64,000 nt of DNA from Sulfobacillus thermotolerans (GTDB taxonomy: Bacteria; Bacillota; Sulfobacillia; Sulfobacillales; Sulfobacillaceae), in contig CP019454.1 in assembly GCA_002951815.1 (NCBI GenBank), positions 992,001 to 1,056,000 on the forward strand, read 5' to 3'. A program made the translations under genes and the position numbers. The notes beneath the pieces are model-generated. The model had not been told where the DNA came from and did not search any database. It worked only from the letters and a program-made list of their open reading frames with translations. Shown piece after piece: positions 27,876 through 53,641 of this stretch (its first letter is position 1; each line of letters begins with the position of its first letter).

Positions 27876-29666
27876 TTAGAAGCCTTCCGCGTTTGCGGTG
27901 AGCTGGGATTTCTGCAGCATCTCGGCATAGGCACCATGATGGGCGACCAGTTGATCGTGGGTGCCCGATTCCACGATCCGTCCCTTATCGAGCACATAAA
28001 TGCAATCGGCGGCACGTATCGTAGACAACCGGTGAGCAATAACGATTGTTGTGCGGTTTTTGGCGACTTCGATGAGCCCCTGTTGTACGGCGATTTCACT
28101 CATCGCGTCCAAATTGGCCGTGGCTTCGTCCAAGACCAAAATAGAAGGATTGAGGACGATGGTGCGGGCGAATGCCAGGAGTTGACGCTGGCCAGCAGAC
28201 AAATTCGATCCATGCGGGGTTAATGGAGTGTTATAGCCTTGAGGAAGTTGAGAAATGAAAGCATGAGCCCCTGTAAGACGAGCCGCGTGGACAACTTGCG
28301 CATCAGACACGTCTGATCGGAAGAGGCGAATATTGTCAGCCACGGAACCGGAATATAAATTCACTTCTTGTTGCACAACGGCGACCCAACGATGCAAGTC
28401 AGCCTGACGGACGTCCCGAATATCTATGTGATCAATGGAGATGGTGCCGCTTGTGACGTCGTAGAAACGGGCTAACAGACTGATGAGCGTACTCTTACCG
28501 GCTCCGGTTTCACCACAGATGCCAATAAATTGGCCGGGGAGAATGTGACACGTGATGTCATCAAGAATCGGGCGACTGCGTTCGTAGGCAAATGAGACAT
28601 GATCAAAGTCTATTCGTCCGGTAATGGCAGGCGGCGTAATCGGACGGGGCGGATCTTTTATCGCCGGAGGCGTGGCTAACACAGCGCTTATACGTTCGGC
28701 CGAGATCATAGAAGATTGTAAGGTATTCCAATTTTGGGTGAGAGAGTTAATCGGCTCAAAGAATTGTTGGATATAGGATATGAAGGCATATAAAACGCCA
28801 ATTTTAATTGTATGGTGAAAAACGGCCATGCCTCCCGCCCAAGCCATAAACGCTACCGCCAAGTTGCCGAGGAGGTCAAAGCTTCGGTTAAAAAACACAT
28901 CCCAACGAAATTCATTCACATTGGCCATCTGAAAGGGAATGTTGAGGTGGTTAAAGGCCTCGAGCTGTTTATCCTCTTGGTGAAACACCTGGATAATTCG
29001 CATGCCGGTCAAATTTTCGGCAATGAATCCAATCAGTCGGGATTGCCGGGATCGGGTGGTGTTGTAGATTTTGTGCAGGCGCGGGCGGAATATAGCGGAA
29101 ATGACGACGATAATGGGAATCACCAACGCACTTAACAAGGCGAGTTTCCAATTTAATAAGAACATCGCACCCATTACCAAAACAATCGTTAATCCATCGC
29201 GGATGACACTCAGCAAGAATTGCGTAAAAAATTGACTAATGCGGGTCGTGTCACTGGCTACGTTTGTGATCAGCCGACCGGTGTCATGAGACTCGAAAAA
29301 AGACATGGAAAGCGATTCAATGTGGCTAAATAGGTCAATGCGAAGTTGCCGGACGACTTGCTGGCCTGCCGATGCGATGACACGGGTTTGCCATAAATTG
29401 GCCAACAGGCCCACTAACGTAATCCCTAAGTACGTGGCTCCAATCGCTATGAGCGGCTCTAGGCGGCCATGGGGAATAAGGAGATAGCGATCAATGGCTA
29501 CCTTGACGAGATAGGGTTGAATCACTTGGGTCAGGTTATACACAATGACCAGGGCTACCACGCCGGCAAATAGCCGGGTATATGGGCGCGCATAAACCAG
29601 CAATTCTCGGATTGTGGCACTGCTAGGACGCGAGGCAGACGTTCCTGGCTGGGGAACATTAGCCAT
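27876..29666 (-). CDS. ABC exporter half-transporter with canonical ATPase site (BmrD-like)
   Basis: 596 aa from the ATG at 29666, which follows AAGGAAGTG; a longer in-frame start at 29747 lies within the upstream gene. Six-helix type IV exporter domain (residues about 20-330) fused to an ATPase. Walker A GETGAGKST and Walker B ILVLDEATANLD keep the catalytic Glu, but the signature is degenerate (LSAGQ). The H-loop His is present (IVIAHRLST). It overlaps the partner gene upstream by 8 bp. Together they match asymmetric heterodimeric multidrug exporters such as BmrCD, LmrCD and TM287/288. Confidence 0.9.
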   Translation of the reverse strand: MANVPQPGTSASRPSSATIRELLVYARPYTRLFAGVVALVIVYNLTQVIQPYLVKVAIDRYLLIPHGRLEPLIAIGATYLGITLVGLLANLWQTRVIASAGQQVVRQLRIDLFSHIESLSMSFFESHDTGRLITNVASDTTRISQFFTQFLLSVIRDGLTIVLVMGAMFLLNWKLALLSALVIPIIVVISAIFRPRLHKIYNTTRSRQSRLIGFIAENLTGMRIIQVFHQEDKQLEAFNHLNIPFQMANVNEFRWDVFFNRSFDLLGNLAVAFMAWAGGMAVFHHTIKIGVLYAFISYIQQFFEPINSLTQNWNTLQSSMISAERISAVLATPPAIKDPPRPITPPAITGRIDFDHVSFAYERSRPILDDITCHILPGQFIGICGETGAGKSTLISLLARFYDVTSGTISIDHIDIRDVRQADLHRWVAVVQQEVNLYSGSVADNIRLFRSDVSDAQVVHAARLTGAHAFISQLPQGYNTPLTPHGSNLSAGQRQLLAFARTIVLNPSILVLDEATANLDAMSEIAVQQGLIEVAKNRTTIVIAHRLSTIRAADCIYVLDKGRIVESGTHDQLVAHHGAYAEMLQKSQLTANAEGF

Positions 29667-31401
29667 GGGTTTCACTTCCTTGCGATTGAATGGCATAGAG
29701 CTGGGCATAAAAGCCTTGGCGCTGCAACAGTTCTTGAGGTGTTCCAAATTCCACTATTTGACCTTCTTCTAGAACCATGATGTGGTCAGCCAACCTAAGA
29801 GATGAGAGGCGGTGACTGGTAATGATGAGAGTACGGCCTTTCTGATGGAGCCGGCGTAACGCGCCTAGAATCGTTTGTTCTGTGAGGCTGTCGACGGCGC
29901 TGAGACTGTCGTCCAAAATGATGATGCGAGCATGGGTTTTTATCAGCGCGCGGGCAATAGCAACGCGTTGGCGCTGGCCACCGGATAAGGTTAATCCGTG
30001 CTCGCCGACCACCGTATCGAAGCCTTCTGGCATGGTTTGCACGGTGGCTAGAATGTTGGCTGCTTGCGCCGCCTGACGTATTTGCGCCGGATCTTCTTGG
30101 GGAGTCGGAAAGGCAATATTATGGCCAATGCTGGAGGAAAAGAGAAACCCATCTTGGGGCACGTAGGCAATGGCCTCGCGTAAGTCAGCTTTGGCGACAT
30201 TGCGGATATCGGTCCCTCCGATGGTTATGGCTTTTTCTGGTGGGTCTAGCTCCCGAACAAGCAAGCGTGTTAGCGTACTTTTCCCAGAACCCGTACGGCC
30301 GACAATACCAAGAATGCTGCCCTCTGGCACCGTAAGGGATAGGTGTCGAAGAGCGGGAGTCTTGGCATGAGGATAGGTAAACGTTAAGTCATGAAAGACG
30401 ATAGGACCATGTACGGGCAGATGCTGCGGCTCAGCAGGTTCGGTGATTTGAGGTTGGGCTTCGAGCAAGACTTGAATGCGCAACAAAGACGCGGACGAAT
30501 TTTGAAAAATATTAATGACATTGCCAAACTGCATCAGGGGGCGTACCAGCATGCTGAGGTATACGGTAAAGGCCACAAATGCCCCTAGGGTGATATGGTG
30601 AGACAAGGTGAGGGCCCCGCCATACACGAGGGCAATGGCAAAGCTGATGCCGCTGAGCAGCGGAATGAGGGCTTGGAATGTTGTATTCAGGCGAACCAAA
30701 TGCATGGAGTTATCATAGACGGAATCGGTGCGTTCCGTGAAACGCCGGACTTCCACTCCTTCATTTCCCGCAGACTTGACCAGGCGAATACTTTGCAAGC
30801 TTTCTTCGGTCATCCCGGCCATGGCTGATAGAGATTCTTGGACCACACGCGACTGCTGCCGAATTTTTGGGCCTAGTTTGACCACGACGACCGGGATAAG
30901 TAACAGCGGGATCAGGCTAATAACGGTTAATGATAAATTGATATGGCGAATGGTCATAAACAACGTGGCCACAAACAAAAATACGGCCTGAAGCGTTTGG
31001 TTGATGCCGCCTGCCAGTGCTTGACGGATGGCCGGTACATCATTGAGGACATGGGACAATAAATCGCCCGTGGTATGTTGGTTAAAATAGTCCGCGTCGA
31101 GATCTTCCCAATGGTCAAATAACAGCCTGCGCAAATCTCCCTCAAAGATCCGCGCTAACTTCCCGACTGTGAATTGGCCGAAGCCAAAAAGGATGACGTA
31201 ACCGATGGAAATCACGGCAAGGTCTTGCGCGTAGCGGTCAATACCGTGGGGCGTAATACCCCGTCGAAATTGGTCAATGAAATGACCGATAATGTCAGGA
31301 ATTTGTACTTGGAGAATCTTGGATACGCCTACCGCTAAAATGGCGAGAATATATTCCGTCCCGTGTTTGTGAAAGAACCGCCGAACCAGTCTTTGACCCA
31401 C
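29659..31401 (-). CDS. ABC exporter half-transporter with degenerate ATPase site (BmrC-like)
   Basis: 580 aa from a GTG 5 nt after GAGGTG. Exporter domain of six helices, then an ATPase with Walker A GRTGSGKST and a canonical LSGGQ signature. Walker B reads IIILDDSLSAVD, so Asp replaces the catalytic Glu, as in BmrC. In the heterodimer its Walker motifs pair with the LSAGQ of the partner (degenerate site), while its LSGGQ completes the partner's active site. The 290-bp upstream region holds large hairpins and tiny ORFs that may control expression. Confidence 0.9.
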   Translation of the reverse strand: MGQRLVRRFFHKHGTEYILAILAVGVSKILQVQIPDIIGHFIDQFRRGITPHGIDRYAQDLAVISIGYVILFGFGQFTVGKLARIFEGDLRRLLFDHWEDLDADYFNQHTTGDLLSHVLNDVPAIRQALAGGINQTLQAVFLFVATLFMTIRHINLSLTVISLIPLLLIPVVVVKLGPKIRQQSRVVQESLSAMAGMTEESLQSIRLVKSAGNEGVEVRRFTERTDSVYDNSMHLVRLNTTFQALIPLLSGISFAIALVYGGALTLSHHITLGAFVAFTVYLSMLVRPLMQFGNVINIFQNSSASLLRIQVLLEAQPQITEPAEPQHLPVHGPIVFHDLTFTYPHAKTPALRHLSLTVPEGSILGIVGRTGSGKSTLTRLLVRELDPPEKAITIGGTDIRNVAKADLREAIAYVPQDGFLFSSSIGHNIAFPTPQEDPAQIRQAAQAANILATVQTMPEGFDTVVGEHGLTLSGGQRQRVAIARALIKTHARIIILDDSLSAVDSLTEQTILGALRRLHQKGRTLIITSHRLSSLRLADHIMVLEEGQIVEFGTPQELLQRQGFYAQLYAIQSQGSETHG

Positions 31402-31480
31402 ACCCGCACCTCAAATCACTACGCCCAATTTTTTGGAACGTCAAGGGAAATAAGAAAATTGGACCTGCCCAACGGGCAGA

Positions 31481-31525
31481 TCAACCAGGATGCCTTTTCT
31501 TTGGTCGAAGGAAATGTTTGCGCAT
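31481..31525 (-). CDS. Putative second leader ORF (14 codons) of the ABC exporter operon
   Basis: The frame starts ATGCGCAAA 1 nt after the stop of the first leader ORF and reads MRKHFLRPKKRHPG, very basic. It spans the loop and the second arm of the large hairpin. No clear ribosome site; coupling to the first leader ORF would be needed. Short length makes chance possible. Confidence 0.25.
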   Translation of the reverse strand: MRKHFLRPKKRHPG

Positions 31526-31547
31526 TTCACGTCGACCAAAGAAAAGG
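31493..31547 (-). promoter_or_regulatory. Long hairpin in the leader of the ABC exporter operon
   Basis: A perfect 16-bp stem (31493-31508 with 31532-31547; CCTTTTCTTTGGTCGA and its complement) encloses a second 6-bp stem (GAAATG/CATTTC) with a 6-nt loop. It lies 92-146 nt upstream of the exporter start. On the same leader, CTGCCC-N3-GGGCAG (31465-31479) and CCAATTTT...AAAATTGG (31425-31462) form further stems. There is no T-run directly after it, so it is not a plain terminator. Confidence 0.55.
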
Positions 31548-31559
31548 ATTCATCTTCAT
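31527..31559 (-). CDS. Putative leader peptide (10 codons) overlapping the hairpin 5' arm
   Basis: ATG AAG ATG AAT CCT TTT CTT TGG TCG ACG TGA encodes MKMNPFLWST. Its coding sequence is the 5' arm of the hairpin, so a ribosome translating or stalling on it would melt the stem. In Bacillus subtilis, bmrCD is controlled by translation of a leader ORF, bmrB, by attenuation. The ribosome site here is weak (GAAGTATGG), and the call is tentative. Confidence 0.35.
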   Translation of the reverse strand: MKMNPFLWST

Positions 31560-31643
31560 GTTACCATACTTCGGCTAGGCGGACGAAGCGGAAAGGATGG
31601 TAGGATTCTTCGGGGGAAGAAGTCGTTGGCAACGTATCTTGGC

Positions 31644-31675
31644 GTCAGGCACTGCCCTCATGGACAGTGCCTGAC
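31644..31675 (-). other. 11-bp perfect hairpin downstream of the solute-binding protein gene
   Basis: GTCAGGCACTG and CAGTGCCTGAC around a 10-nt loop, 19 bp after the solute-binding protein stop. No T-run follows, so it may stabilise the mRNA 3' end or be a weak or factor-assisted terminator. Confidence 0.5.
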
Positions 31676-31693
31676 TGGTACGACTTTTAGGCC

Positions 31694-33421
31694 TTAGGGG
31701 GAGACCCACCAATAATTCGGATGGATGTTTCCGAATGTCCCCAATTCCGTGCTCACACCATGAATCGTGTCCGCATGAACGATAAATTTAGGCTCCATGG
31801 GCAGAAATATCACCCCTGGTAATTGCTGCGCGACATACATTTCATACCGGTAGAGGCGGTGTAGTGTCTGCATTGGAGTCCCTGGTTCATAGGTGGCTTG
31901 TATTAATAGGTTCATTTCGTGGTTACTGTAATCTCCACCATTTTCGCCCGCATCTGTTGCAAATAAGCTTCCTCCTGTCGGATACGGGTCATTGCCATAG
32001 GTCCATGCGGCTCCGTCAGACCAATCCACCATAGCCCATTTGCTGGCGTTCGAGGGCCCATAGCTGACCACGGTATCAAAAGTTTGGGGCACTAAGTGGA
32101 CCTCGATGCCTTCTTGGGCCCAATTGCTTTTCATCAGTTGCACCATGTCTGCAGCGCTTTGCGTCCCGGCGGCATAATCCAAGGTAAAATTGAGCGCCAT
32201 TCCCTGCTTCGTCATCACGCCGTGTACCTCACGCCATCCGTTTTTCAGCAAGAGCTGCTTGCCGCGGGCAGGATTAAAGGGATACAGAGGACGAGTGAGG
32301 GCGGGATTAAATAGGAAGGTTTTAGGAAGGGGGGCCAAGGAGGTATCGTCGATCACGCCGTATCCGTGAAAAATGTGCGCAATCATACCGGTTTGGTCGA
32401 CCCCCATCTGTAGGGCTTGGCGAACCGGAAGTTCCGAAAAAGCTTTCCCAATTTCGTGGGGAGCAGCAGGGTTTAAGTTTAAAGCCACATAATCGAAGCC
32501 CGGTCGATATAGCGCGGTAATTTTGTCATGGGGAATCTCAGAACGTGCACCGAGTAATCCTACGCCTAAATAACCGACATTAATGGCACCAGTTCTCAAT
32601 GCCGCGAATTCGGCAGCCGATGATGTTTCATATTTAAAAACGACACGACTTAGATAGGATTTATGGCCGTCATAGTGTGGATTGGGTACGAAGGTCCAAT
32701 AATTACCAGGCTGGTAGCTAGCCAAACGATAAGGGCCGTCAACCACTTGATAGACGGAATTCGTGGGCAAGTTGGCTACTGAATTTATAAAGGACATTTC
32801 TTTGGCCATATTCTTTGGGTAGCGGTCCCATATTGAACGGGGCACGGGAATTATTTCCATCAATCCATTGCGGATAAACCATTCGGGATTGCGTGGAACG
32901 GTTGTCGTGATTACGACGGTATGGGAATTGGGTGCGACAACGCTTTTCCATGTAGCAGGAATGCCGCCAGATCCTTCTCCCGAAAAAGCCCACGAATAAG
33001 GATTGTTGGGCATTGAGCCCGCTTGCATAATATCCCATGTAAAGACGACATCTTGGGCGGTGACCCTGTGCCCATTTGACCAGTGCCATTTGGGATTTAG
33101 GTGAATCGTATAGACAGTGTCACTGGCGTTCCATGTCACGGACGATGCAAGGCTATGCTGGGGCTCAAAGTGGCCTTGTTGATTAAAGTATACCAGGGGC
33201 TTATACATCATCAAATCTGTTTCAAAATTGACGACGGTATCCGCGTTTAGTGAAACGAGGGGAAAAAACCAGTTGGGTGATGTTTGCACGGGCAGTGCGT
33301 AAACAGCCGTTCCTCCAAAATGCGGAACGATGCGAGGCGCGGCATTAGAACTTGGTGTGCCGCATCCTGCCAGTCCGATAACGATTAAGCCGCTCGTTGC
33401 GACCTTTATCAGCCTATTCAA
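31694..33421 (-). CDS. Family 5 extracellular solute-binding lipoprotein (peptide/nickel/oligosaccharide type)
   Basis: 575 aa from a TTG at 33421, which has GGGAGG at good spacing and puts the lipobox (VIGLAGC) directly after a short hydrophobic leader. The mature protein is a DppA/OppA-type binding protein (FETDLMMYKPLVYFNQQGH; WHWSNGHRVTAQDVVFTWD; GPYRLASYQPG). It would be anchored outside the membrane and deliver a peptide or oligosaccharide to an ABC importer. No permease genes are next to it, so it is an orphan. It might use the importer at 35964-39830. Confidence 0.88.
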   Translation of the reverse strand: MNRLIKVATSGLIVIGLAGCGTPSSNAAPRIVPHFGGTAVYALPVQTSPNWFFPLVSLNADTVVNFETDLMMYKPLVYFNQQGHFEPQHSLASSVTWNASDTVYTIHLNPKWHWSNGHRVTAQDVVFTWDIMQAGSMPNNPYSWAFSGEGSGGIPATWKSVVAPNSHTVVITTTVPRNPEWFIRNGLMEIIPVPRSIWDRYPKNMAKEMSFINSVANLPTNSVYQVVDGPYRLASYQPGNYWTFVPNPHYDGHKSYLSRVVFKYETSSAAEFAALRTGAINVGYLGVGLLGARSEIPHDKITALYRPGFDYVALNLNPAAPHEIGKAFSELPVRQALQMGVDQTGMIAHIFHGYGVIDDTSLAPLPKTFLFNPALTRPLYPFNPARGKQLLLKNGWREVHGVMTKQGMALNFTLDYAAGTQSAADMVQLMKSNWAQEGIEVHLVPQTFDTVVSYGPSNASKWAMVDWSDGAAWTYGNDPYPTGGSLFATDAGENGGDYSNHEMNLLIQATYEPGTPMQTLHRLYRYEMYVAQQLPGVIFLPMEPKFIVHADTIHGVSTELGTFGNIHPNYWWVSP

Positions 33422-53549: not shown

Positions 53550-53570
53550 GTCTAGTTTTAGGTTAGAAAA

Positions 53571-53610
53571 TCATAAAACAGCAGCCCTTAGAAAGGCTGC
53601 TGTTTTATGA
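53571..53610 (+). terminator. Intrinsic terminator of clpP
   Basis: A perfect 16-bp stem (TCATAAAACAGCAGCC and complement) with an 8-nt loop and a T4 run inside the second arm. Confidence 0.85.
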
Positions 53611-53641
53611 TTGTGCGAGAATATCCGGTGATGGCAGGCGG

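Follow-up and report, generated by a model that had tools for sequence, protein, structure and literature searches.

A conserved, covarying hairpin upstream of an ABC exporter in several Sulfobacillus species

The genome of Sulfobacillus thermotolerans, a single contig of 3,317,203 bases, encodes two adjacent half-transporter genes which, judged by sequence, form a heterodimeric ABC exporter of the multidrug type; the protein chains they match include BmrC/BmrD and TM287/288. We analyzed the leader of this exporter within a 64-kb stretch of the genome (hereafter, the window). All leader features are on the minus strand and, together with the exporter genes, are the following.

31558-31568, minus strand: predicted extended -10 box TATGGTAACAT (TRTGNTAACAT), invariant in all six species that carry the hairpin and occurring once in the window
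31493-31547, minus strand: hairpin 1, a 16-bp perfect stem with an upper stem, its base 10 nt from the -10 box and hence predicted ~3-4 nt from the mRNA 5' end
31462-31482, minus strand: hairpin 2, GATCTGCCC-GTT-GGGCAGGTC, the sole terminator-like site in 31000-32000
31447-31461, minus strand: U-rich tail CAATTTTCTTATTTC, 3' of hairpin 2
31425-31461, minus strand: weak, unconserved stem 3 formed by CAATTTT and AAAATTG, which the minimum-energy structure of the whole leader lacks
31407-31412, minus strand: exporter Shine-Dalgarno sequence GAGGTG, -6.9 kcal/mol with the anti-Shine-Dalgarno sequence; three of the five relatives likewise carry GAGGTG
29659-31401, minus strand: ABC exporter subunit 1, 580 amino acids, matching the BmrC/YheI chains of BmrCD structures
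27876-29747, minus strand: ABC exporter subunit 2, matching TM288, BmrD/YheH and other half-transporter chains

From 5' to 3', the leader reads TATGGTAACAT, hairpin 1, hairpin 2, the U-rich tail, weak stem 3, GAGGTG and the GTG start codon of subunit 1 at 31401. The TTG start of subunit 2 is a mechanical call, and the true start is probably located further in. The available part of the S. thermotolerans proteome paper lists stress proteins, and no mention of the exporter was seen there. Two other structures in the window are worth recording. A strong hairpin at 31645-31683 (GTCAGGCACTG / CAGTGCCTGAC) lies 3' of the upstream substrate-binding-protein gene and is not followed by a U-run on the minus strand, and an inverted repeat of 21 nt at 53569-53612, flanked by A and T residues, is likely a bidirectional terminator.

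The arms of hairpin 1, CCTTTTCTTTGGTCGA (31547-31532) and TCGACCAAAGAAAAGG (31508-31493), are 100% complementary over 16 bp. Only two inverted repeats of at least 15 nt with arms within 60 nt of each other are present in the 64-kb window, hairpin 1 among them, and the folding of the leader stands at z = -6.4 relative to shuffled sequences, none of 200 shuffles being as good; hairpin 1 is far above chance. A sequence-only reading of this DNA had described such a 16-bp perfect hairpin upstream of the exporter, followed by two further stems before the exporter start. All three are there, the two stems at 31482-31462 and ~31461-31425, and the hairpin is conserved in six species. Hairpin 2 is confined to S. 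thermotolerans; nothing corresponding to it is present in the five relatives.

We compared 34 genomes of the family using a pattern search for the hairpin and a six-sequence covariance model. The exporter is strongly matched in 27 of these genomes, and the hairpin is present in six Sulfobacillus species, namely that of the window, Sulfobacillus sp. clean5091 (L031), S. benefaciens AMDSBA1 (L032), a Bacillota MAG (L034), and the species G018 and G019. Each of these genomes contains a single site, always upstream of the exporter and nowhere else. Neither the pattern search nor the covariance model found the hairpin in the other 28 family genomes, and a DNA search of the 34 genomes with the whole leader gave only its own locus as significant. 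Weak covariance-model matches in two genomes of genus g11 (E ~0.1, these E-values being rough) occur in other contexts, one of them directly 5' of a transposase-like ORF, and were rejected as unrelated. In the same genus, long hairpins starting with GCCTCTTTC are located beside promoter-like boxes at ~1500-1570 in L094 and ~1510-1580 in L095; that of L094 precedes a transposase-like ORF, so these hairpins are probably ends of insertion sequences. Within Sulfobacillus, L040/L077 (G014) show no hairpin 5' of the exporter; TTGTGGTA is retained there, whereas the region of the hairpin is apparently missing, in a contig the title of which gives coverage below 1x.

The genes located 5' of the leader vary between species, and several are divergent. 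Because the neighbors vary and several point away, the element apparently travels with the exporter, and a terminator of the upstream gene was discarded as the identity of the hairpin on the same grounds. In sister genera, the same exporter occurs without the hairpin, in several cases with short leaders behind TATAAT promoters. This absence suggests that the hairpin was gained at the level of the genus, and the hairpin-free exporters of the sister genera make the gain of the element testable.

Covariation was measured on the six-sequence alignment, with 500 shuffles and pairing partners slid by 1-3 columns as controls. The 22 base pairs hold in 93.2% of the cells across the six species, and 11 pairs are changed on both sides; none of the 500 shuffles reaches any of five covariation measures, and sliding the partners drops the pairing to 45-52%. 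Between species (G013, G015), most of the upper stem has been exchanged for other sequence, with pairing retained. Since pairing is kept despite the changes of letters, base-pairing itself is under selection and would act most simply in the RNA of the exporter strand. A palindrome acting as double-stranded DNA, that is, as the operator of a regulator, could be suspected given that the inverted repeat lies immediately 3' of the promoter and that its half-sites AGAANAGG are conserved. However, the wholesale replacement of the upper arms with retention of pairing, the variation in total hairpin length (52-55 nt across the six species), and the greater stability of the sense-strand hairpin compared with the antisense one in five of the six species all speak against it, and we consider this explanation highly unlikely. 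Searched with the covariance models of Rfam 15, the leader gave nothing at gathering score, matches below that level being those expected by chance. The leader is thus a cis-acting RNA that is uncatalogued in Rfam and supported by covariation. No other such element came up in our searches for this acidophile lineage.

The box TRTGNTAACAT is located 8-10 nt 5' of the hairpin base in all six species. The extended -10 element of Gram-positive bacteria is TRTGN-TATAAT, and related boxes of the TRTGNTAAGAT/TAAAAT form (for example, TATGATAAGAT, TGTGGTAGGAT, and TATGATAAAAT) occur at a comparable place before the same exporter in a sister genus. No recognizable -35 element is present at the predicted promoter. 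The fit of the box to the Gram-positive extended -10 element places the mRNA start probably ~1-4 nt 5' of the hairpin, so that, with the start positioned from the conserved box, the hairpin probably forms the 5' end of the mRNA. Two kinds of palindrome were also observed in the relatives. Just 5' of the exporter -10 box in sister genus g10 (L069, L071, L072, L073, and L074), there are palindromes of the TTAAG-N2-4-CTTAA type, for example, TTAAGTTTCTTAA; these are probably operators of a transcription factor and are absent in Sulfobacillus. In L055 (G019) and L056 (G018), and in these two species only, the palindrome CCATAATTATCGAAGATTATGG, a candidate operator, lies just 5' of TGTGGTAACAT.

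The position of the promoter bears directly on two small ORFs that the sequence-only reading had noticed on the arms of the hairpin and interpreted as leader peptides, with a stalled ribosome changing the folding.

31527-31559, minus strand: ORF1, MKMNPFLWST, judged not to be a gene
31481-31525, minus strand: ORF2, MRKHFLRPKKRHPG, one base past the ORF1 stop, judged not to be a gene

The ORFs are present as placed. Their interpretation as genes is not supported, given the lack of conservation and of a good Shine-Dalgarno sequence, and the overlap with the promoter. The invariant -10 box ends with the A and T of the ORF1 ATG, so ORF1 as written would begin before the transcript. Two of the six species (G013, G015) have ATA in place of this start codon, and in the four species with ATG, frames of the ORF1 type comprise 10, 55, 11, and 11 codons and encode different peptides; neither the frame nor the peptide of ORF2 is conserved among the six species. 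The stem is conserved across the six species, and the ORFs are not. The anti-Shine-Dalgarno energies of the two ORFs are -3.4 and -2.2 kcal/mol, compared with -6.9 for the exporter. An ATG ORF of 8-40 codons is found in 70% of dinucleotide shuffles of the leader, and in 8.7% of the shuffles two such ORFs adjoin, the end of one and the start of the next being no more than 10 nt apart; the ORF pair is no more than chance. The sole variant that might be transcribed starts at the in-frame ATG at 31553 (MNPFLWST), would be at most nearly leaderless, and has no counterpart in the relatives.

Ribosome-mediated attenuation via ORF1 and ORF2 could be envisaged because the ORFs lie on the hairpin arms in S. 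thermotolerans and because the exporter is related to BmrCD, the genes of which are controlled in this manner (PMC4191407). Apart from the overlap, loss, and variability of ORF1, the poor ribosome sites, the lack of ORF2 conservation, and the frequency of such ORFs by chance, the folding itself argues against this mechanism. When 24-48 nt of the 5' end are forced to be single-stranded, hairpin 1 is gone and hairpin 2 still forms, so the proposed effect of a stalled ribosome is not borne out; nor did the constrained folds reveal an exclusive antiterminator partner, so there is no support for a bmrB-like switch. We regard this explanation as very improbable. The case illustrates that what looks like a leader peptide when only the sequence is consulted may prove to be a promoter box plus a hairpin.

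A different translational scheme would involve the 3' arm. The motif AGAAGAGG (AGAAAAGG in the window), with UUG 7-8 nt later, is present on this arm in six of six species, and AGAAGAGG followed by RMUUUUAUUG resembles a ribosome site with a UUG start. Instead of serving as a terminator, the hairpin might mask this site, and its opening would allow translation of an ORF of 13-23 codons, the exporter being controlled either through this translation or through a factor that binds. The peptide encoded by this third ORF shows no conservation across the six species, and this scheme appears quite improbable.

Sequence is constrained at the foot of the stem and in the segment adjoining it. Five species retain the foot CCTGTTCT / AGAAGAGG and its G-G mismatch, one of them (G017) with an extra change, and RMUUUUAUUG directly follows the hairpin in five of the six (L031, L032, L034, L055, and L056). 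In these five species, UUUUAUUG is identical, and the sequence further downstream diverges. The species of the window has lost both the mismatch and UUUUAUUG; its stem foot is CCTTTTCT / AGAAAAGG, where a U-A pair replaces the G-G mismatch. A stem foot and single-stranded UUUUAUUG that are constrained while the upper stem changes freely could be the target of a trans-acting factor, either a protein that binds RNA or a nuclease that processes it; the RNase J and Y sites listed in PMC3997798 are AU-rich and near structure, for example, G^UUUAUUC. Such a factor would explain both the identity of UUUUAUUG and the G-G mismatch, which termination and protection cover poorly. However, the window species lacks both features and no candidate factor emerged, LoaP being absent (0 of 34 family genomes over the curated cut-off, with only NusG-level matches below it). 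A factor of this kind thus seems rather unlikely.

Two more conventional explanations are left. As a 5'-terminal protective structure, the hairpin would keep RppH and RNase J away from the start of the mRNA and yield a long-lived transcript, with no termination involved. The predicted gap between start and hairpin is only ~1-4 nt in all six species, and B. subtilis RppH requires at least two unpaired 5' nucleotides (PMC3997798). In Bacillus, long downstream regions are stabilized by a hairpin placed at the 5' end or close to it (PMC3997798), and expression of B. subtilis bmrA was raised by an upstream mutation that increases mRNA stability, as cited in PMC4319486. Protection leaves the conservation of RMUUUUAUUG and of the G-G mismatch unexplained and would make hairpin 2 of the window superfluous, and the transcription start on which it depends is a predicted one; it is nevertheless a realistic possibility.

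Alternatively, the hairpin might promote premature termination. Transcription would begin at the extended -10 promoter, and the first ~55 nt would fold at once into a hairpin of ~20-24 bp. The hairpin together with the U-rich sequence that follows, which is RMUUUUAUUG in five species and is replaced in the window by hairpin 2 and its U-run, would cause some polymerases to stop before the exporter genes, so that the pump would be kept low, as at S. pneumoniae patAB; a signal, if there is one, would relieve termination. This mechanism is consistent with the U-rich block right 3' of the hairpin in five of the six species and with hairpin 2 followed by CAATTTTCTTATTT in the species of the window. 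Against it stand the AU-rich stem foot, the two-base non-U spacer, and the conservation of the G-G mismatch in five species, as well as the identity of UUUUAUUG in the same five, which exceeds what a U-run needs. Moreover, hairpin 1 of S. thermotolerans has no U-run of its own and is kept perfectly paired all the same, which favors protection for this hairpin. By a formula used for comparison only, terminator scores lie between -27 and +6; the nine gene-end hairpins of the window that score best reach +4 to +42, and 90% of random 140-nt stretches score under +0.7.

The hairpin probably controls expression of the pump. We slightly favor premature termination over 5'-end protection, and the two may act together. 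Our preferred overall interpretation, which we put forward tentatively, is that of a genus-specific, peptide-independent 5'-terminal stem-loop that would work as a leader attenuator in a patAB-like manner.

Among the known systems, bmrB-bmrCD of B. subtilis is similar in being the leader of a related ABC exporter pair (PMC4191407). There, bmrB is a translated leader gene of 162 nt with a terminator inside the coding region and a predicted antiterminator (PMC4191407). The Sulfobacillus leader is distinct from bmrB, as the earlier reading had surmised from size and sequence, and has no Rfam match; it shows neither a conserved ORF nor mutually exclusive folds. With the two tested defining features of bmrB failing (a conserved translated ORF and exclusive folds), this is not an element of the bmrB type. 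LoaP-dependent leaders carry a promoter-proximal RNA hairpin before a terminator; the present leader shares such a hairpin, but no LoaP is found in the 34 family genomes at the curated cut-off.

In S. pneumoniae patAB, the start is predicted 67 bp upstream of patA, and a stem-loop lies between the start and the first gene (PMC4319486). The arrangement described here is similar, with a heterodimeric ABC exporter behind a stem-loop located between the (here predicted) start and the first gene, and that account, as far as available, likewise invokes no leader peptide (PMC4319486). The likeness is one of organization. A clear Rho-independent terminator, together with an antiterminator that is predicted, is described for patAB (PMC4319486), whereas here the hairpin is at the predicted 5' end, its foot is AU-rich, and a spacer separates it from the U-rich block. 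A strong hairpin at or near the mRNA 5' end is also a feature of the B. subtilis aprE leader and of E. coli ompA (cited in PMC3997798); unlike these stabilizers, the Sulfobacillus hairpin is followed by a conserved U-rich block. By analogy, the leader would act most like patAB or a 5' stabilizer, and, as a cis-acting RNA supported by covariation, it enlarges the small set of leaders known for multidrug-type ABC exporters in bacteria.
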